26,054 nt of DNA from IMG/VR virus record IMGVR_UViG_3300025282_000211, positions 1 to 26,054 of that record; one strand, given 5' to 3'. The translations under genes were made by a program, and so were the position numbers. Under the pieces are notes generated by a model. The model saw only the letters and a list, made by a program, of their open reading frames with translations, was not told the origin of the DNA and made no database searches. This document shows, piece after piece, positions 1,032 through 19,429 of the stretch (position 1 is its first letter; each line of letters starts with the position of its first letter). The stretch comes from a virus.

Positions 1032-1288
1032 TATTTTCTCCGTTTATTAGATTTATGCTTTTTCTCTACAGCCCAATCAGCGACCAGGGTGCGAAGTCCA
1101 CGAACAACCTCATCTAGTCCCCGTCCCTGCATGAACAAATTCTCCCTAGTGTTCACCTCGTTCAGATCCGTTAGATGCCATTGTGTAACGATGCTGGCTC
1201 TTGCGGTTTCGATAACTTCGGTGAACACAGGATCTTCAAGTATCTCCTGCGCTCGCCTGCCCTTCTCTTCGCGAGTCAGGTTATTCAT
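1031..1288 (-). CDS. Small conserved-type protein between portal and scaffold
   Basis: An 85-residue protein with a likely helical, charged fold (residues 5-50 and 55-75) and a very basic C-terminus (KKHKSNKRRK). I do not recognise the family. Its ATG lies inside the last codons of the portal gene (ATGAATAA, 8-base overlap), and its TAG stop shares a base with the GTG of the scaffold gene. It is therefore translationally coupled on both sides and probably works in head assembly. The lysine/arginine-rich tail could contact DNA or the acidic scaffold, but that is inference. Confidence 0.7.
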   Translation of the reverse strand: MNNLTREEKGRRAQEILEDPVFTEVIETARASIVTQWHLTDLNEVNTRENLFMQGRGLDEVVRGLRTLVADWAVEKKHKSNKRRK

Positions 1289-3377
1289 TGTCTAGCATTT
1301 TCTTCAGGATTTCAAGGTCTACCTTGGATTGATATTTTTCTTCTGCCTCAAATTCCCTAATTGTAAGGTCACCTGCGATTCTCGCACGCTCGCGTTCATC
1401 CATTTGCTGGGCCTTAGATGCGTCCAACATGACCTTCTGCTCGGCTATGCCCAGCTTCTGTTGGTCAACCGCCGTGCGAGCTTGGATGTCCGCCATCTGA
1501 GCCTGCACCAGCAACTCTTCGGGTGTTGGTGGTGGAGGTTCAGGCGGCGGCGGTTGCCAGTCCACTGGAATTGGCTTAAAGAACTGGTCGGTGTCCTTGT
1601 AGCCGCTGATCTCCAACATCTTGGCAAGCGTGTTTCTAATGTTCCCCAGGCCGACTAATGGATTGTCTGGCCCAAGTTTTTCCATCGCCTCAGTTTGTCT
1701 GGCCGCGATGTTGTTCAGCACCGCCAGCCGCTCGTCAGTTACCCCTGATCCGAGGCCCACATTCACAGAGCAGTCCATAGAGGAGTTCCACACCCTGGGA
1801 TCCACTGGCACCCACTCGTTACGAAGGCGCACAACGCGCTCCTTGTCCTGGTGCGTGATAACAAGCCTGAGAAGTCCTTTGAATAGACGCTTAAATCCAT
1901 TCTCGGCAAACAGTCTGGCTATCATTTCCAGGTGCTGTTCGGCACCACGAATCGTGGCGGTTACAGCGGCCCTGGTTGTGGATTGAAGCACATCTGGATC
2001 CAGGCCCTGCGATGCAGCGGTCTGGCCTGTGCGTGATTCCTTCATCTGGTCCAGATACGCGACCATAGGAAACGCTTCCTTACCCAGGAACGGCACATCC
2101 AACTGCTGCACCATACCAGGCTGGCGCATCCTGATAATTGATCCTACTTCTGGGTTAAGGACATCATCAATGTCCACCATACCCTCAACCACCCCTACTC
2201 TCGGGTGGATGGCAAAGCTCAAGCTATCCAACATACCACGCAGTACAGCAGATTTAATTCTCTGGATATCCTTTGTGAGGTCGGCCAGATCGGAGCCAAA
2301 GAACAGGTGTGGCTCTGGATCGCAGGCGAACATAGCGAACGGTATCTCATCCGCTGATTCATTGTTTACAACCTTGTAACCGTCGCCAACTGTGCATACC
2401 CGTCTGAGTTCCGCTATACCGTCACCGTCATAGTCGATGTAGCACCAAGCCTCGCAATACAGAACGCGCCTGCGCTCATAGGAGGATAGTGGACTCATGG
2501 AGGATCGGTTTTTGTACCGCGCCCAATACTCGTCTGTGTCCGTAAACGCCACCTCGTCCGACAGATGCTCTTCCAGCATTTTCCTGTCATAGCCCAAGGC
2601 AACCAGGTCGGACACCGTAGCCATTGTTCTGTGGCCTACCACCATAGCGTCCTCAAGGCTAGTCGCGGCTGCGTCCACCAAGAACTCCTCGGGGGGCATT
2701 GTTTCGATCTTAACCTTATTGCGCTTGACCTTGCGTGTAATCTCAGCGTCATAGATTTGGGGCACAGGCATACCTTGTGCTTCCATCATCATGGCCTGCT
2801 CTTGGGGCACGTTAGGTGCTGGACGGGCCTCGACTGTCACAGCCTCTACGCCCTCTTCCTGAAGGATAAGTCCTAGCTCTCCCTCATCTAGATTCTCAAA
2901 CGTGTGTGTTGTGACCTCAATTGAGTCATCCCACCACCATTTAATAAATCCGCCCTTATTCATTAGCGCGTCCTTGAACACACTATAGAACAGCCCTACC
3001 GCATCGTTGTCCTGCTGGATGACGTAGTTGATGTAGTCTGTAGCCTGTTCAGCCTGTGCTACATCTTCTGGACCCTGGGGTACGAACTCCACAAACTTCT
3101 GGCTACCAAAGAACACCCTCATCATAGAGGGTAGTACGGCCTGCACGGAGTCTCTCACATCCCGACTGACTACCTGACTCCTGCCGTCCTGTTCATCACC
3201 GAACGGGTCGCCGCGATAGTACCTGGTTGACTCTGCCCTGATAGGGCTGATGTCATCGTCAATGTATTGAATAGCGTCTTCGATATATTGGCGAACTGCG
3301 ATCTGCACCTCTTCTTCTGTCATCTGCTCGGGCGGTGCGGCCCCCTCGGTCTGCGTCTGGTCTTCTGTGTAAGCCAA
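1281..3377 (-). CDS. P22-type portal protein
   Basis: A 698-residue portal (head-to-tail connector), expected to form the dodecameric ring through which DNA is packaged and ejected. Its length matches P22-like portals (about 700 residues). The N-terminal region has the characteristic stretch SQVVSRDVRDSVQAVLPSMM, followed by MRVFFGSQKFVEF. Later come the RRVCTVGDGY and DIQRIKSAVLRGMLDSL segments typical of this group. The C-terminus from about residue 600 is a proline-rich linker (PPPPEPPPP) followed by a long charged helix with Q and A repeats, like the barrel or coiled coil of P22 portals. The start is TTG at 3377; no upstream in-frame ATG is seen, AAGGA lies ten bases before it, and the next internal Met is residue 19. 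It directly follows the large terminase. Confidence 0.92.
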   Translation of the reverse strand: MAYTEDQTQTEGAAPPEQMTEEEVQIAVRQYIEDAIQYIDDDISPIRAESTRYYRGDPFGDEQDGRSQVVSRDVRDSVQAVLPSMMRVFFGSQKFVEFVPQGPEDVAQAEQATDYINYVIQQDNDAVGLFYSVFKDALMNKGGFIKWWWDDSIEVTTHTFENLDEGELGLILQEEGVEAVTVEARPAPNVPQEQAMMMEAQGMPVPQIYDAEITRKVKRNKVKIETMPPEEFLVDAAATSLEDAMVVGHRTMATVSDLVALGYDRKMLEEHLSDEVAFTDTDEYWARYKNRSSMSPLSSYERRRVLYCEAWCYIDYDGDGIAELRRVCTVGDGYKVVNNESADEIPFAMFACDPEPHLFFGSDLADLTKDIQRIKSAVLRGMLDSLSFAIHPRVGVVEGMVDIDDVLNPEVGSIIRMRQPGMVQQLDVPFLGKEAFPMVAYLDQMKESRTGQTAASQGLDPDVLQSTTRAAVTATIRGAEQHLEMIARLFAENGFKRLFKGLLRLVITHQDKERVVRLRNEWVPVDPRVWNSSMDCSVNVGLGSGVTDERLAVLNNIAARQTEAMEKLGPDNPLVGLGNIRNTLAKMLEISGYKDTDQFFKPIPVDWQPPPPEPPPPTPEELLVQAQMADIQARTAVDQQKLGIAEQKVMLDASKAQQMDERERARIAGDLTIREFEAEEKYQSKVDLEILKKMLDNE

Positions 3378-3418: not shown

Positions 3419-3442
3419 AGGGGTGAGAGTGAGATCACCCCT
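3419..3442 (-). other. Perfect 8-bp hairpin at the terL-portal junction
   Basis: AGGGGTGA and TCACCCCT pair perfectly around an 8-base loop. The arm at 3435-3442 includes two bases of the terL TAG stop. There is no U-run after it in the direction of transcription, so it is not a standard intrinsic terminator. It may be an RNA stability or processing element, or slow ribosomes between terL and portal. Confidence 0.5.
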
Positions 3443-4826
3443 ATACTATACCCATCAGGTCGCGCTTGATCCTGCCCCTGTGCCTGCCGCCGCGACCACC
3501 TATAGCTGTACCTGCTTCAGAGGCGAAAGTCAACATGAAGGCGTCAGCGGCATCTGGACTCGCCACCCCACGCTTCTTTAGGTCGGCCTTAGACTCGATT
3601 TTCACCCTGCCCGTAGATGTGTAATTGTAGCGCACTGTCACCAACTCCATTTTCAGACGCTCATCCCTGGGCAGGCGTACATCCCTGGCCTCCAGCCACG
3701 ACTTGGCCTTATACCAGAGTTCCGCTCTAAGGTTCAAATAGTGCTTACCAAGTGCTGGACTCTCTGCCACGTTAATCGCGTAGGCTGGCAGTCCGAGTTC
3801 TCGGAGCCTGTCTGCGACCCCAGCACCTAATCCTATGGCGTCCACAAATATCTCCAAGGGCGTGTCTTCTGTGCTGTCATATTCAGCTTTGATCGCCCCT
3901 GTAAGTTGCATGGTGTCCAGGTTGCGCCAGATACGCACGGGTTCCGTGACCGCATTACCTCTTCTTTTACACAGAGCGGATGCGTCTGCGCCGAACCTCG
4001 CTACGTCCACACCCCATACCATCGGGCCGAACTCCGTAGGTAGCACATCTCGACTAATTGCGTCCGCGACCAACTCCTGTGGGATAACCGTATCGTCATC
4101 AGCACGGGGGAATTTTCCCAAGACCCTAACTCTGTAGGTGTTGGACTCCTCCCCGTAACGCAGGCGGCACTCTTCAATATATTCCTGAGACACCCTCGGC
4201 GTCTCCTCGCAGGACACATGGAAGGTAGTCCAGCGGTCTGCCAGTTTGTGGAAGGTGTCGTAGAAGTAGCCTGTGGAGCGCACGGGGTTTCCTGCTAGAA
4301 CCATTGTGGCGTGATGCGCGGACATGGATCCAGCAGCGGCCTCATAAACCTGCTCGGGCACGCCCGAAGCCTCGTCCGCGATAAGTAGCACATGGTCGGC
4401 GTGAATACCCTGGAGCGCGTCTGGCTGTTCTGCGCGACTGGTCCTGGCCGATATGAAGTTTCGCTCTGGATCAGAGGCAAGCTCTATGCGGTCTGCCTTG
4501 ATGTTGAATCTCTCTTTGAATTTATCAGAGGATTGCTTGAGCCATGACTTGGCCTCTGGCAGTAGCGCATCGTGCAACTGCGCTGACGTAGGTGCTGTGA
4601 TGACCACCTTGGCGTGATGGTGAGTGAACACCCACCAGAGTGCGAGCCAGGACAGGCAGCTAGTCTTGCCGACTCCGTGACCAGAGCGGATGCTGACTCC
4701 TCTATCCCCTCGGGCTACCGCCTCCATGACTTCTTTCTGCCAGGGGTCTGCCTTCGCTCCTAGCACCACCTCCACAAAGAACGCAGGATCGTCCGCGCAC
4801 TCTTCTATGAGGTTATCTACATTCAA
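3441..4826 (-). CDS. terL: Terminase large subunit
   Basis: A 461-residue packaging motor and headful or site-specific nuclease. The N-terminal ATPase has Walker A GHGVGKTS at residues 49-56 and Walker B VLLIADE at about 146-152, with Asp151 and Glu152. The C-terminal RNase H-like nuclease has WGVDVARFGADAS at about residue 270, a second acidic segment (IFVDAIGLGAG), and the final SPDAADAFMLT motif. All expected catalytic acidic positions appear present, so it looks intact. The start is TTG at 4826 with AGGA seven bases before it; no in-frame ATG occurs until residue 34. The matching small subunit is not adjacent but lies about 4.7 kb upstream in the same direction (9513-10007). Confidence 0.96.
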   Translation of the reverse strand: MNVDNLIEECADDPAFFVEVVLGAKADPWQKEVMEAVARGDRGVSIRSGHGVGKTSCLSWLALWWVFTHHHAKVVITAPTSAQLHDALLPEAKSWLKQSSDKFKERFNIKADRIELASDPERNFISARTSRAEQPDALQGIHADHVLLIADEASGVPEQVYEAAAGSMSAHHATMVLAGNPVRSTGYFYDTFHKLADRWTTFHVSCEETPRVSQEYIEECRLRYGEESNTYRVRVLGKFPRADDDTVIPQELVADAISRDVLPTEFGPMVWGVDVARFGADASALCKRRGNAVTEPVRIWRNLDTMQLTGAIKAEYDSTEDTPLEIFVDAIGLGAGVADRLRELGLPAYAINVAESPALGKHYLNLRAELWYKAKSWLEARDVRLPRDERLKMELVTVRYNYTSTGRVKIESKADLKKRGVASPDAADAFMLTFASEAGTAIGGRGGRHRGRIKRDLMGIV

Positions 4827-4893: not shown

Positions 4894-5088
4894 ATGGCTC
4901 AAAGATGGTTTCCCACATCAAACGGAAAAGGTTGGTACACATTAGACTCAGGTAATGCAGAGGACTGGTTTGAACTAATGAAGAACGCTAATGGTGTCCA
5001 GCGAATCACCTCAGTAAACCAGAGGGCGGCTGACCATCGCGTGCATCAGCAGGCGCAAGATGGCGAAGACCCAACGCCCCAAGAATAG
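4894..5088 (+). CDS. Isolated plus-strand small protein, moron-like
   Basis: A 64-residue reading frame on the strand opposite to its neighbours. The first 37 residues occupy the gap between terL and the 841-residue gene and read like a normal protein (MAQRWFPTSNGKGWYTLDSG, then AEDWFELMK). The last 27 residues overlap the 3' end of the convergent minus-strand gene by 83 bases. A promoter-like TTGGTA-N17-TATATT lies just upstream; the ribosome site is weak (GAGA). One 60-base row inside it is 42% G+C, against 60% in a terL row, so the composition differs locally. A plus-strand gene with its own promoter inside a minus-strand late operon fits a moron. No family is recognised. Confidence 0.5.
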   Translation: MAQRWFPTSNGKGWYTLDSGNAEDWFELMKNANGVQRITSVNQRAADHRVHQQAQDGEDPTPQE

Positions 5089-7531
5089 CGACTGAAGGAA
5101 GCACTTGATTATTTTGGACAGCCGTGCGTAGTCCTCGCAGTCCTTGTTCTGAAAGAATACGGAGCGCGTTCATAATATCCTGACGCACCACATCACCCGT
5201 GCGTTCAGCGTACTCCTGGTTCCGTGTAAGATTCGCAGCCGCCTTGGCGCGTAGCTCTGGCTCCAACGCTCTAGCTAACTCAGGATTCCTTAGAGTGTCA
5301 TCCAAGAATTTTGTCGTAGCCTCCCTGGACCCCTCCGTCTTCCATAAATCAGCGTAATCGACATACCCCGAATCAACCTTAACTCTCTGTAAATTCGAGC
5401 CAGGTAGAATTTCAGTAATCTCAGCACCAAGGTCGCTTCCAATACGCTTACCTAGTGTCTCACCATAGAGGCCCCAATCCTGTAGCTTCTCCACCTCGGT
5501 TGGGGTGAGTGAACGCTTATCTTTTAGGGCCTTCTCCATTAACTCGTTGATCCCTTTCGGCCTAACAAACGAGTCTTCAATTAGGTTCACTCCACGCCCT
5601 GTATCGACCACGAACATCCCCTCTCGCTCCGCGATCTTTTGAAGTGCCCTTAGTTGTTCATCGGTGGGTGATCCATCAAGAGCGATATGAAGAGAGGTGC
5701 GCTCAAGTGGGCGTGTCTGAGCGTTAGGGATTATGTGGTGCCACGCACCTGCATTTTGTGTGTCTACAAAAGCCCTTCCCCCCTCAACTGTGTCTAATAT
5801 TTCCCGAGCTTGGGGCACCACCTCACCACCCCTGCTTTGAGCTAACATACCAGCCCTGGTTCCTGGGTTGTACTCAATCCTCCCAGTATCTGGGTTCCTG
5901 AATATCCCCCTAATAGAGCGCACACCTTCTTGTATTTGCCCTGCTGCACTATAGAGAACATCTAGGCCACGCCTAGTCCAAGGTGTTTCCTCACCAAACG
6001 CCACTTTTTCATCGTAAGGTAAATCGGCCACAGAAGGGAGATGTCGTTCGTCGGGAATTTTGGGTCCACCTGGGTATGACTCAATCTCTCCAGTCCTGGG
6101 AACTTGTTCGTATGTCGCGTTAGCTGCATAGCGTGGCGAATAGTCCCCAAAATGTAGAGTGGCTTGGTCGGGTGAAATCCGCCCTGACTTAATTTGGATC
6201 CCAGACCATGCAGCGGCCTGGGCGTTCGCGTGGTTCCAATCAGTGTGACCGCCAATTTTGTTGTCATTCAAAAACTTAACCACCTCATCCATCTGCTCGT
6301 CCATGAAGGCGTGCTGCTCTCCGCTATACCCAGCGTCCCAGGGCTTCGCGGTTTTCCATTCCTTACCTTCTTTGAACACTCTCCCTTTCACGTTACCCTT
6401 GGCGTCTGTTATGGAGTCGAGCGCGGCCTTCTTACTCGGGAATCCCTTCTGGGATATATGCTCATAACCAAACGCTCGGCCCTGCCAAATATCATGGACG
6501 GCTGTTTCGGCCTGCTTTGAATCCCTAGTTAATCTTAGGTTCTCCCAGAATGGTCCTATCTTTGGGCCGAACATAACATCCTCACCTGCTACTACCCCTT
6601 CGATCTTTGGACCCATAGCACCTGGGAAGCGTCCAGCCCGTATAGGCGCACCGCCCACTCCAGCTTGGTTGAGGGCGTCTACCGCGAATCCAAGGTTGGT
6701 TGATACATCGGCTTGGGCAGATGTAATCCCTAGAATCTGTGCGACCTCGTCCTCCATACCTGGAGGTACTGCCCCCTCAATCCATCGACCAGCATCTCTA
6801 TACCAATCGCGCCCACCCATACCCTCAATTACGTTGTGGATATATTCATCACGCATATCCTTTAATGTTTCTGGGTTGTCCAGCCTTGTGGTGCCCTGGT
6901 ATCTCGGTCCACCCACATAGGAGCCGTCTGGATGCCTGTCTTTTACTTTACCAACATCCCTGGTCCTCTCTAGGTCGGTAGCAACGTCCGCGCCCCTCAT
7001 GGCGTCAATGCCCTTGGCGACTGGAGTTCCTACAACGGGCACGGCGGCTAATGCTGCTAGTCCTCCACTCACCCACTCTCTTTCTTTAAGGTAGTCAGGC
7101 ACGCGAGCTAAGTCCGCTATATCTCCTGCTATGGTGAACTCGGGCGCAATACTACCCAATAGTCCCCCTGCCCGACCCTCTGGGCTGTCTGGTACTTGCT
7201 CTTGTCCCCATTGCTCCATAGCCGCCATTCGTGGCTGCTCTTTCGGTAGCAGTCCTTGTCCGACTCTGAGCGCACCAGCACCACCACCATAAAATGCGCC
7301 CTGGGCGAAGTCGCTCACCCTGCGTGGTATGGTGGATGCGTAGGTCCCGATTCTGTTGAGCAGTGACGGGGTTGGATAAATCGACGGTTGGTCTGGGCCA
7401 CGGGGTGGTAGCTCCGTGCCCCTCTCGGGCCAGTAGTCGGGTGTCCAGCCTGTAGCGTCCTGTGCCTGTAACAGACCCTGTTGTCGCTTCCACCAATCTG
7501 GATCGCGCTGTCCTAGTAGTCCGTTAGCCAT
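5006..7531 (-). CDS. Large virion-associated, ejection-type protein
   Basis: An 841-residue protein, probably packaged in the head or ejected with DNA. The N-terminus (1-60) is rich in W, P and G. Residues about 75-130 and 153-174 are glycine/alanine-rich and hydrophobic (GGLAALAAVPVVGTP) and could interact with a membrane. Residues about 228-290 (EYIHNVIEGMGGRDWYRDAG, then ITSAQADVSTNLGFAVDAL) resemble a domain repeatedly seen in large phage proteins of unknown function. The C-terminus has another hydrophobic stretch (VLPSVAILGALGL). No lysozyme or protease motif was identified. The ATG overlaps the stop of the preceding 43-residue gene (TGATG). It lies between head/packaging genes, which supports a virion role; the exact function is inference. 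Confidence 0.75.
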   Translation of the reverse strand: MANGLLGQRDPDWWKRQQGLLQAQDATGWTPDYWPERGTELPPRGPDQPSIYPTPSLLNRIGTYASTIPRRVSDFAQGAFYGGGAGALRVGQGLLPKEQPRMAAMEQWGQEQVPDSPEGRAGGLLGSIAPEFTIAGDIADLARVPDYLKEREWVSGGLAALAAVPVVGTPVAKGIDAMRGADVATDLERTRDVGKVKDRHPDGSYVGGPRYQGTTRLDNPETLKDMRDEYIHNVIEGMGGRDWYRDAGRWIEGAVPPGMEDEVAQILGITSAQADVSTNLGFAVDALNQAGVGGAPIRAGRFPGAMGPKIEGVVAGEDVMFGPKIGPFWENLRLTRDSKQAETAVHDIWQGRAFGYEHISQKGFPSKKAALDSITDAKGNVKGRVFKEGKEWKTAKPWDAGYSGEQHAFMDEQMDEVVKFLNDNKIGGHTDWNHANAQAAAWSGIQIKSGRISPDQATLHFGDYSPRYAANATYEQVPRTGEIESYPGGPKIPDERHLPSVADLPYDEKVAFGEETPWTRRGLDVLYSAAGQIQEGVRSIRGIFRNPDTGRIEYNPGTRAGMLAQSRGGEVVPQAREILDTVEGGRAFVDTQNAGAWHHIIPNAQTRPLERTSLHIALDGSPTDEQLRALQKIAEREGMFVVDTGRGVNLIEDSFVRPKGINELMEKALKDKRSLTPTEVEKLQDWGLYGETLGKRIGSDLGAEITEILPGSNLQRVKVDSGYVDYADLWKTEGSREATTKFLDDTLRNPELARALEPELRAKAAANLTRNQEYAERTGDVVRQDIMNALRILSEQGLRGLRTAVQNNQVLPSVAILGALGLRHLAPADARDGQPPSGLLR

Positions 7532-8568: not shown

Positions 8569-8614
8569 AATTTAGTTAAAAGATTTCTTACTCTTCTTAC
8601 TTTATGTAGCGAGG

Positions 8615-8636
8615 TTGTAACGGCGTCCTGTTACAA
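8615..8636. repeat. 7-bp inverted repeat upstream of the nuclease gene
   Basis: TTGTAAC (8615-8621) and GTTACAA (8630-8636) form a perfect dyad with an 8-base spacer. The right arm belongs to the repeated CTGTTACRA element, so the site may be an operator made from two inverted half-sites. Confidence 0.45.
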
Positions 8637-8719
8637 GCCTCAGTTAGCATAGGGAATTTTTGGCTTAGATACAACACCTATAGCACTACCTGTCTGTTAC
8701 GAACCCCTGTTACAAGCCT
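8627..8719. repeat. Three CTGTTACRA-CC direct repeats
   Basis: CCTGTTACAAGCCT occurs identically at 8627-8640 and 8706-8719. A close variant, CTGTTACGAACC, lies at 8694-8705. The last two are 13 bases apart. They flank the space between the 67-residue gene (whose stop lies inside the last copy) and the nuclease gene, and may be operator or iteron-type sites. Confidence 0.55.
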
Positions 8720-8913
8720 AGCTTCTTTTTTTGAGCCGAAGTTAGAGTGATTTCGTGGCCATTAAGCCACTCAACCACAGACTCAATCGTCAGACCATTT
8801 GAAGGCTTACTCAGGGCCTCAATGCTCTCGGTCATAAGACGCCTATCCACTCCACCAAGAGTTAGGAATTTCAATCTGGATTTCATTCTCACTATCAGAT
8901 CCTGGTCAGTCAT
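8710..8913 (-). CDS. Small unknown protein, first gene after the structured gap
   Basis: A 67-residue protein (MTDQDLIVRMKSRLKFLTLG..., ending AQKKKLGL) predicted to be mostly helical and basic. The ATG at 8913 has a very good ribosome site (AGGAG, six bases before the ATG). The central and C-terminal part (LTIESVVEWLNGHEITLTSA) could be a small helix-turn-helix, but no family is recognised. It is the first gene downstream of the leftward promoter-like sequence at 9032-9060 and would be the leader gene of the late operon if that promoter is real. Confidence 0.65.
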   Translation of the reverse strand: MTDQDLIVRMKSRLKFLTLGGVDRRLMTESIEALSKPSNGLTIESVVEWLNGHEITLTSAQKKKLGL

Positions 8914-8979
8914 AAAATCTCCTGAAAATTAGAATTGATGTGTGTGGGGTACATATAGGTAGGGGGGGGTGCCCTCGGC

Positions 8980-9003
8980 TTTGGGGGGGTTCCCACCCCC
9001 AAA
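8980..9003. other. G/C-rich hairpin TTTGGGGG / CCCCCAAA
   Basis: A perfect 8-bp stem with an 8-base loop lies between the promoter-like sequence and the 67-residue gene. A second G run (8962-8969) is close by. There is no U-run on the correct side for leftward transcription, so it is more likely a leader structure than a terminator. Confidence 0.5.
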
Positions 9004-9031
9004 AAGTGTCCTGTTTTGATGACAAGTTCGT

Positions 9032-9060
9032 ATAATATCCATTATGTTACCTTGTGATAA
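9032..9060 (-). promoter_or_regulatory. Leftward sigma70-like promoter before late genes
   Basis: On the minus strand, TTATCA (9060-9055) and TATTAT (9037-9032) are separated by 17 bases (4 of 6 and 5 of 6 consensus matches). It lies immediately downstream of a cluster of stem-loops and about 120 bases before the 67-residue gene, which suits a separate start for late transcription. Confidence 0.4.
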
Positions 9061-9064
9061 CTCT

Positions 9065-9290
9065 CTAAGTCTATGCAACACAACGACTTAGTGATTCCAT
9101 GCATAAACCGTCAATGTTATTGTTACTTAACAATGGACAATTACGCAGTGATTCTGCATAAAACCCAAACCTGAACCCAGTCCTGGTTCTTGAACTGGTT
9201 TGGTCGTACAGTTCCACAAACCGTTGTGGCACAACGACTTACGCCGTCGGTTCACGCGCACGCGTGTTGGTTCGGCTCGCTGTCCGCGAG
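9065..9290. other. Cluster of stem-loops and short repeats in a non-coding gap
   Basis: The gap between the zinc-ribbon gene and the 67-residue gene (8914-9307) holds no convincing gene. It contains a run of dyads: CTAAGTC/GACTTAG (9065-9091), ATTGTT-ACTT-AACAAT (9119-9134), nested CCAAACC/GGTTTGG around GAACC/GGTTC (9165-9203), CCACAA-ACCG-TTGTGG (9214-9229), CACGC-GCAC-GCGTG (9253-9266) and CTCGC/GCGAG (9276-9290). It also has direct repeats: CACAACGACTTA at 9079 and 9230, and AGTGATTC with TGCATAAA at 9090 and 9147. Possible roles are a termination region, replication origin, packaging site or structured RNA. Confidence 0.6.
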
Positions 9291-9307
9291 TTGACCCAAA
9301 AGCCCTT

Positions 9308-9520
9308 TCACTCATTACCCGAACCTATCAACAGTGAAGACCTGTAGCTGGTCGCAGTCCATTCACCATTCCTACCGTCATCACAGTCCTTGCACACTCG
9401 GTCAGGGTTCCTACCCACTGGAGCCTGCTCACCACACTCCACGCACACCTCAATCTTCCTGACCACAGGCTTGTCACCACGATGTCCTTCAGTCACGGTT
9501 ATGAATCTCCTCTCAACCAT
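9308..9520 (-). CDS. Small zinc-ribbon protein
   Basis: A 70-residue protein with Cys26-x2-Cys29 and Cys43-x2-Cys46 (CVECGEQ and CKDCDD), a four-cysteine zinc site spaced by 13 residues, like small treble-clef or DksA/TraR-type fingers. The ATG overlaps the TGA of the small terminase gene by 8 bases (ATGGTTGA), so the two are coupled. It may bind DNA, RNA polymerase or the terminase; the sequence does not decide. It is the last gene of the replication/packaging segment before the structured non-coding gap. Confidence 0.7.
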   Translation of the reverse strand: MVERRFITVTEGHRGDKPVVRKIEVCVECGEQAPVGRNPDRVCKDCDDGRNGEWTATSYRSSLLIGSGNE

Positions 9521-10007
9521 CCACCACCTCGGCCTCGACCACTACCTCTTCATTGGCTGCTGCCAGTCTCCTGGCCTCTCTCCTGGCTGACACTCTCTTG
9601 AGCGCGTTCAGGAAGCTCTCATCATCCGTTATGATGTTCACCGTCTGATCGGGCTGCTTACCGAAGGTCGAAGGCTTGTACTTCTCTGCCATCCACTGAC
9701 GGTATGATGCTCTAAGCTTTGCTCCCTGCACACTCGTAGGGTCATCACAGTTGTCTACAATCTCCAGCCCTTCCTCGGCAAACCCTTCAGCCAGGATACC
9801 CTTAACCGTGTTCCACCTCTCAATCCTACCCTGGTCGGCCTTCAGCCACTCATAGAACACACCAGTGGACATTGTGCCCACCTCCTTCGGCAGGTTCTTC
9901 AGCAGCGGCCTGACGCCCTCATGCTCCAGATACAACTTGAATATCCTCTCCTCCCCATACGCATCCAATCTCTTAGCTGCGCTTCGGGTCATCTTCTTAC
10001 CTGGCAC
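9513..10007 (-). CDS. terS: Terminase small subunit
   Basis: A 164-residue protein that should recognise the packaging site and hand DNA to the large subunit. The N-terminal half (about 15-75) is helical with a probable helix-turn-helix. Residues about 108-125 contain the hallmark LRASYRQWMAEKYKPSTFGK, equivalent to the (R/T)RxWxxxKxxPKxYGDK segment of Sf6-type small terminases. The C-terminus is a charged helix ending in an acidic tail. The start is GTG at 10007 because AAGGAG lies seven bases before it; an ATG five codons later is the alternative. It overlaps the preceding gene by 11 bases. It is separated from terL by five or six genes and the structured gap. Confidence 0.85.
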   Translation of the reverse strand: MPGKKMTRSAAKRLDAYGEERIFKLYLEHEGVRPLLKNLPKEVGTMSTGVFYEWLKADQGRIERWNTVKGILAEGFAEEGLEIVDNCDDPTSVQGAKLRASYRQWMAEKYKPSTFGKQPDQTVNIITDDESFLNALKRVSARREARRLAAANEEVVVEAEVVDG

Positions 10008-19182: not shown

Positions 19183-19429
19183 CCTGCTTCTCGGGCAGAA
19201 TGCGATAGCCCCACACCTTGCGGAGATTCCCAGTCAGACTCTCTCGCATGATCCGTACTGGCACCAAGCGACCTGTCTTGGATATGCGCTTCAGCCGTTT
19301 CCGTACAGCAGCTTCACCTACGCCAAGTAAGTCAGCCAACTCCCCTGTAGTAAACGCATCATCAGGTGCTTCGACATTCTCAATTGCCGCTTGAAGTTCT
19401 GCTATTAAATCAGCCTCAGTCATCTTCAT
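19169..19429 (-). CDS. Winged-helix DNA-binding protein
   Basis: An 86-residue protein with a clear helix-turn-helix: DDAFTTGELADLLGVGEAAV, then RKRLKRISKTGRLVPVRI, and a wing (GNLRKVWGYRILP). It should bind DNA as a regulator. The ATG overlaps the stop of the phosphoesterase gene (ATGA); a second ATG two codons later is possible. Found after the lysis and phosphoesterase genes, it may tune late or host transcription; no target is seen. Confidence 0.7.
   Translation of the reverse strand: MKMTEADLIAELQAAIENVEAPDDAFTTGELADLLGVGEAAVRKRLKRISKTGRLVPVRIMRESLTGNLRKVWGYRILPEKQDAEE

Follow-up and report, generated by a model that had tools for sequence, protein, structure and literature searches.

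A putative dif-like XerCD recombination site in a conserved non-coding block beside the terminase genes of an integrase-less tailed phage

The window, which is the whole stretch of DNA analysed here, belongs to an ocean phage, and its record is linear and 26 kb long. It was found to contain an SU10-type portal gene (1281-3377) followed by TerL (3441-4826), and the terminase small subunit (TerS) was found on the minus strand at 9513-10007 (PF20901, E 1.8e-11; phrog_1482). Two further minus-strand ORFs flank a gene-free gap at 8914-9307. The ORF at 9308-9520 encodes a small Cys-rich protein that is Zn-ribbon-like by its sequence and without a Pfam or PHROG family match, and the ORF at 8710-8913 encodes a 67-aa protein with a homologue at the equivalent position in the related phage G153 (41% identity). 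The original prediction of a gap without genes next to terS was borne out, and the ORF listing for 8914-9307 contained inner ORFs of just 50-62 aa, which were unconvincing. An 841-aa ORF at 5006-7531, between the conserved block described below and TerL, gave no Pfam or PHROG match at E 0.001 and has a homologue in the relative G152 (38% identical). The gap at 8569-8709 was also found to be non-coding and contained GTTACAAGCCT in two direct copies (8630 and 8709), an arrangement that is rare by chance.

The stem-loops and the direct repeats that had been claimed for the gap were both present. The direct repeats comprised ACAACGACTTA at 9080 and 9231 and G-runs at 8963 and 8983, and the repeats were found to be conserved in relatives; their absence there would have spoken against the original prediction. 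The fold of the region was better than that of dinucleotide shuffles, with z -3.1 on the plus strand and z -2.0 on the minus strand. Such folding and the many hairpins are what a structured non-coding RNA on a minus-strand transcript would give, but the better fold belongs to the plus strand and the genes here are on the minus strand, and palindromic DNA sites yield such folds regardless. Covariation was found to be absent, as 10 relatives gave an RNAalifold covariation term of +0.62 with 1 of 38 pairs compensatory, and an Rfam search of the region returned no match. The proposal of a structured RNA was thus not supported, and this reading is extremely improbable.

The G/C hairpin was found at 8983-9000 (GGGGGGGTTCCCACCCCC), and the relatives contained a G-run/C-run counterpart, GGGGGAAAAAAGACCCCCCC, at the equivalent position. 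Contigs of the same species from other samples end at 8998 and 8967, within the G/C runs at 8963-9000, and these contig ends are an assembly break at the hairpin. The recurrence of the hairpin in relatives, and the presence of TGTC..GACA-TTTTT on the minus strand just past the core of the site described below, are in line with the suggestion of an early-operon terminator followed by a late promoter. Against this, both sigma-70 and terminator patterns occurred at chance level, and conservation was centred on the core and the palindromes rather than on a terminator. The sequence that had been called promoter-like did not stand out either, since its patterns were found 2 times against 2.3 expected, and it shares bases with the arms of the site described below. 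A terminator with a late promoter is therefore highly unlikely to account for the region, though such elements may be present as a minor component.

The strongest feature of the gap, a 28-bp dif-like site on the plus strand at 9025-9052, had not been recognised in the original prediction. It was found to contain a predicted XerC arm at 9025-9035 (AGTTCGTATAA), followed by the central region TATCCA at 9036-9041 and a predicted XerD arm at 9042-9052 (TTATGTTACCT), all on the plus strand, in the 11-6-11 layout of bacterial dif. A PWM was built from 43 published bacterial dif sites, of which 41 were taken from the table in PMC2731167 and two were seed sites from PMC3025954. The core scored 28.95 bits with this PWM, followed by 3.5 bits for the next unrelated site of the window, and 28.5 bits when the arms alone were scored (13.5 + 14.6 in a separate scoring). 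In 10 Mb of simulated DNA the best score was 18.2 bits, and zero sites equalled the core. A blastn search with 42 nt around the core against 72,556 plasmids, which is independent of the dif matrix, matched 664 records, 623 of them from Acinetobacter, whose plasmids are known for many Xer (pdif) sites. Because the match extends to each dif arm and to the spacing of 6 bp, and the simulation gave nothing as good, 9025-9052 is judged from its sequence to be a dif-like target for recombination by XerC/XerD. The plus strand also contained a second Xer-like site at 9096-9127, made up of TCCATGCATAA, a 10-bp spacer and TTATTGTTACT. It scored 9.0 bits in the window and 11.8-12.8 bits in relatives, for a 95% level of 9.6 bits in random 300-mers, and the pair was conserved in several relatives with a spacer of 10-11 bp. 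This weak second site barely rises above the chance level.

Conservation peaks at the core, which belongs to a conserved non-coding block at 9002-9275. This block contained the core followed by about 220 bp on the XerD side, possibly serving as accessory sequences. The block was 82.8% identical at the DNA level to phage G153 (the contig of L017) over 290 aligned columns. For the proteins, the identity between G153 and the window was 51% for TerS, 41% for the 67-aa protein and 78% for TerL, and the TerL DNA was about 70% identical. As the DNA identity of the block exceeds that of its neighbours, the non-coding DNA is under stronger constraint. Two copies of the palindrome TAAGTC..GACTTA were found on the XerD side of the core, along with further conserved motifs. 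The copy nearest to the core, at 9066-9090, is conserved in relatives, and the second copy, at 9217-9241, contained CAAACCGTTGTGGCACAACGACTTA.

The TAAGTC half was also found to recur near dif-like sites in other phages. Among 49 non-redundant viral contigs with dif-like sites, ACTTAG was present 20-29 bp past the XerD arm in 7, and in 6 the XerC arm was preceded by CTAAGT at a distance of about 30 bp, for an estimated chance expectation of about 0.1-0.2 cases per 10-bp bin. Phage C72C1 contained a motif of the ACTTAG/CTAAGT type at the matching offset from its site. In the phage contigs L031, L039, L023 and L029, the palindrome TAAGTCSTTRTG..CAAGGACTTA was found in pairs, 52-53 bp apart, around a GGGGCGGCCCC-like stretch, and several of these pairs were located upstream of TTGACA..TATAAT promoters. 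In L031 such pairs recur several times in 6 kb (for example at 3702-3779).

A Planctomycetota host, suggested by the palindrome, was examined in an in-depth host-genome search that covered Planctomycetota. A matching dif was found in 3 of 149 genomes, which was not above the reversed control, and the chromosomes of this phylum contained the palindrome GTAAGTC..GACTTAC sparsely, in 15 of the 149 genomes. Because the dif matches did not exceed the control and the palindrome was rare, this host is unsupported. In L043, GTAAGTC..GACTTAC at 1640 starts at the stop codon of a gene. The contig L042, binned as Candidatus Nealsonbacteria, encodes a protein of flagellin/hook-like type and also has several palindromes of the Planctomycete type, and it may be mis-binned.

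Contigs of the same species were identical, and more distant relatives were reached through an alignment of TerS. Six of them (L014-L019) contained a gap of 400-500 nt between TerS and a similarly positioned small ORF, with strong DNA conservation in the gap. A dif-like site was found at the equivalent place in nine relatives (L013-L016, L019, L022, L028, L032 and L036), and the sites of the relatives scored 19-29 bits with the PWM. Phage C72C1 (OQ984150, 34.9 kb), for which a literature search found no publication, contained a site at 19397-19424 adjoining TerS (23.5 bits). The XerC arm TTGTCGCATAA is common to C72C1, L013 and the published Magnetospirillum dif (other strand; PMC2731167), and this sharing suggests that the phage arms follow the host lineage.

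No recombinase of the phages themselves, of either the tyrosine or the serine type, was found to accompany the site in the relatives searched. In profile searches in which the controls were detected, Phage_integrase (PF00589) was found neither in the window nor in 8 relatives, and Resolvase (PF00239) was found in none of 6 records including C72C1. The recombinase-free relatives include G152 (35,352 bp), which contained an exact 127-bp end repeat, so that its genome looks circular and complete. The site is not universal, as no good site was found in cultured relatives with a related TerL or portal, namely the HTVC010P group, Venkman and phiM5, and the site was also missing from the cultured relative HTVC106P. 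In the cultured pelagiphages examined, of the HTVC010P type, no site was found near TerL. In the contigs L066, L068, L074 and L162, dif-like sites adjoin a TerL related to that of the HTVC010P pelagiphages, which are abundant (57% for L066).

The breadth of the site class was assessed by a gene-blind DNA pattern scan of viral contigs with TCGYATAAYNNNNATTATGTTAMC, which matched at least 119 viral stretches where, by estimate, a few at most were expected by chance. When phage records were searched by blastn with 32 nt from a typical site, most matches were weak and the best were in microviruses. In all 36 listed contigs with a window-like TerL, the site was found 37-802 bp upstream of TerL, in the gene order terS-site-terL or site-terS-terL. 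Further TerL branches, including the phrog_2 and phrog_38 types in PHROG searches, were also found to adjoin the site, and these branches supplied the TerL and TerS models for the distance counts. The site was located within 1 kb of a terminase gene in 93 of the 98 listed contigs with a recognisable terminase and inside the gene in none of the 98. In the non-redundant set of 35, a distance of at most 1 kb was found for 30 sites, against 44% under random placement, and a distance of at most 300 bp for 25 sites, against 29%. The orientation of the site relative to TerL was mixed, with 64 opposite and 21 the same, and exceptions to the adjacency were L176, L098, L104 and the microvirus-like L117. 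Common ancestry and the shortness of the contigs may account for part of the adjacency. In L117 (5.3 kb) a gene for a major head protein of phrog_514 lies at about 0.9 kb from the dif-like site, and this contig is probably a microvirus using dif.

The position next to TerS, the repeats and palindromes, and the adjoining of terminase genes across the class would also be expected of a packaging element (pac/cos or a TerS-binding site) or a replication origin that merely resembles dif. The match includes each dif arm and the spacing of 6 bp, however, at a score that nothing in the 10-Mb simulation equalled, and the same arms were found alongside divergent TerL and TerS families. The GC skew contained no switch at the region, which counts against the origin that had been proposed. 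For the proposed packaging site the neighbourhood was right, but the element itself is a predicted Xer site and not a demonstrated pac/cos, and a packaging element or origin as the whole explanation is improbable.

The central bases were found to change faster than the flanks and the arms. Between close relatives, at 5-10% flank divergence, the 4 free central bases diverged by 0.247, followed by 0.077 for the flanks and 0.047 for the free arm positions; this was not seen above 20% flank divergence. In L028 and L036 the region is 97% alike and the centres differ (TAACCA and TATCCA). Xer-type recombination requires identical centres in both partners. A centre that drifts between fixed arms fits a site that recombines with another copy of itself and would be harder to reconcile with a host dif as the partner. 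It points to circularisation or the resolution of dimers rather than to integration at dif, although the hosts may differ between these phages, so that it is not decisive.

The main rival use of the same site would be as an attP, with the phage lysogenising through XerCD integration at the host dif as filamentous phages and micro-phages (IMEX) do. The identity of the core as dif and the lack of a phage integrase in relatives would suit this, and Xer-dependent integration is known in filamentous phages, microviruses and the non-tailed Asemoviridae (PMC5357621, PMC7062461, PMC3091885, PMC9966536). C72C1 also has an annotated repressor and no annotated integrase. The variation of the centre between close relatives stands against integration, since the dif centre varies little within a species (PMC2731167), and the terminase-side position would be left unexplained. 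A single full-strength site was found in 45 of the 46 whole virus records searched, and no integrated copy or attL/attR pair was found among the 46. The record with two sites, G186, was rejected as an attL/attR case, as its sites come from near-identical overlapping contig ends. Integration as the main role is thus rather unlikely, and it could serve as an alternative or additional use.

The site shares features with several known systems. The bacterial dif has the same 11-6-11 layout, and the XerC arm TTCGTATAA and the XerD arm TTATGTTA are as in the Acinetobacter dif GATTCGTATAATGTATATTATGTTAAAT (PMC2731167). The phage site differs from bacterial dif in its location beside terminase genes, its centre TATCCA, its outer XerD bases CCT and its neighbouring palindromes. 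The Acinetobacter pdif modules are the closest plasmid sequences by blastn, but the phages contained one site each and no pairs flanking mobile modules. The cer site of ColE1 and the psi site of pSC101 likewise contain a dif-like core and a roughly 200-bp non-coding accessory stretch. The accessory DNA of cer and psi lies on the XerC side of the core, whereas the phage block lies on the XerD side, and the phage centre is 6 bp, whereas the cer centre is 8 bp. cer and psi use ArgR, ArcA and PepA sites, and the analogy of the phage block with cer is one of block length and position. cer measures about 280 bp in all, of which its accessory DNA takes up about 180 bp (PMC5357621), and the block at 9002-9275 likewise contained a core with adjoining conserved, possibly accessory DNA.

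The attP sites of IMEX (CTXphi, VGJphi, TLCphi and GGI) and the dif-using microviruses and Asemoviridae likewise combine one dif-like site with no recombinase of their own. The phages described here also contained a dif-like, attP-type site in the absence of their own recombinase (PF00589 absent in 8 and PF00239 in 6), but they are tailed dsDNA phages with a terminase, and the centre varies between close relatives. In P1, Cre acts at lox, beside pac, to circularise the genome. The location by the packaging functions is alike, as was found in the 93 of 98 listed contigs within 1 kb of TerL or TerS, and so is the proposed role of circularising through redundant copies. The phages differ from P1 in that no phage-encoded Cre-type recombinase was found and the site is asymmetric and dif-like rather than loxP.

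Taken at a probability of about 0.55, the locus would be a dif/cer-like site for the host XerCD, by which an integrase-less tailed phage could convert its genome to a circle or to monomers next to the packaging locus. The dif-like site in a conserved block, the recombinase-less phages and the nearby terminase are seen in the sequence. The host XerC would bind 9025-9035 and the host XerD would bind 9042-9052, and the block could act as accessory DNA that biases recombination towards pairs of copies carried by the same molecule. A site beside pac would stay within the terminal redundancy, so that a headful-packaged, terminally redundant genome would carry the site at both ends and could be circularised by XerCD. 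In the case of a dimeric circular form, the same XerCD reaction would resolve it to a monomeric circle.

The hijacking of Xer is already known for filamentous phages, micro-phages, some non-tailed phages and plasmids, and no description of a terminase-linked Xer site in tailed marine phages was found in the literature outside subscription journals. A wider proposal, held tentatively and at somewhat less than even odds, is that many marine integrase-less tailed phages use one terminase-side dif/cer-like site and the host XerCD instead of a Cre-type recombinase, an accessory palindrome accompanying the site in some of the groups. If true, this would explain the circularisation or persistence of integrase-less phages, and the XerCD arms would be usable for host prediction.
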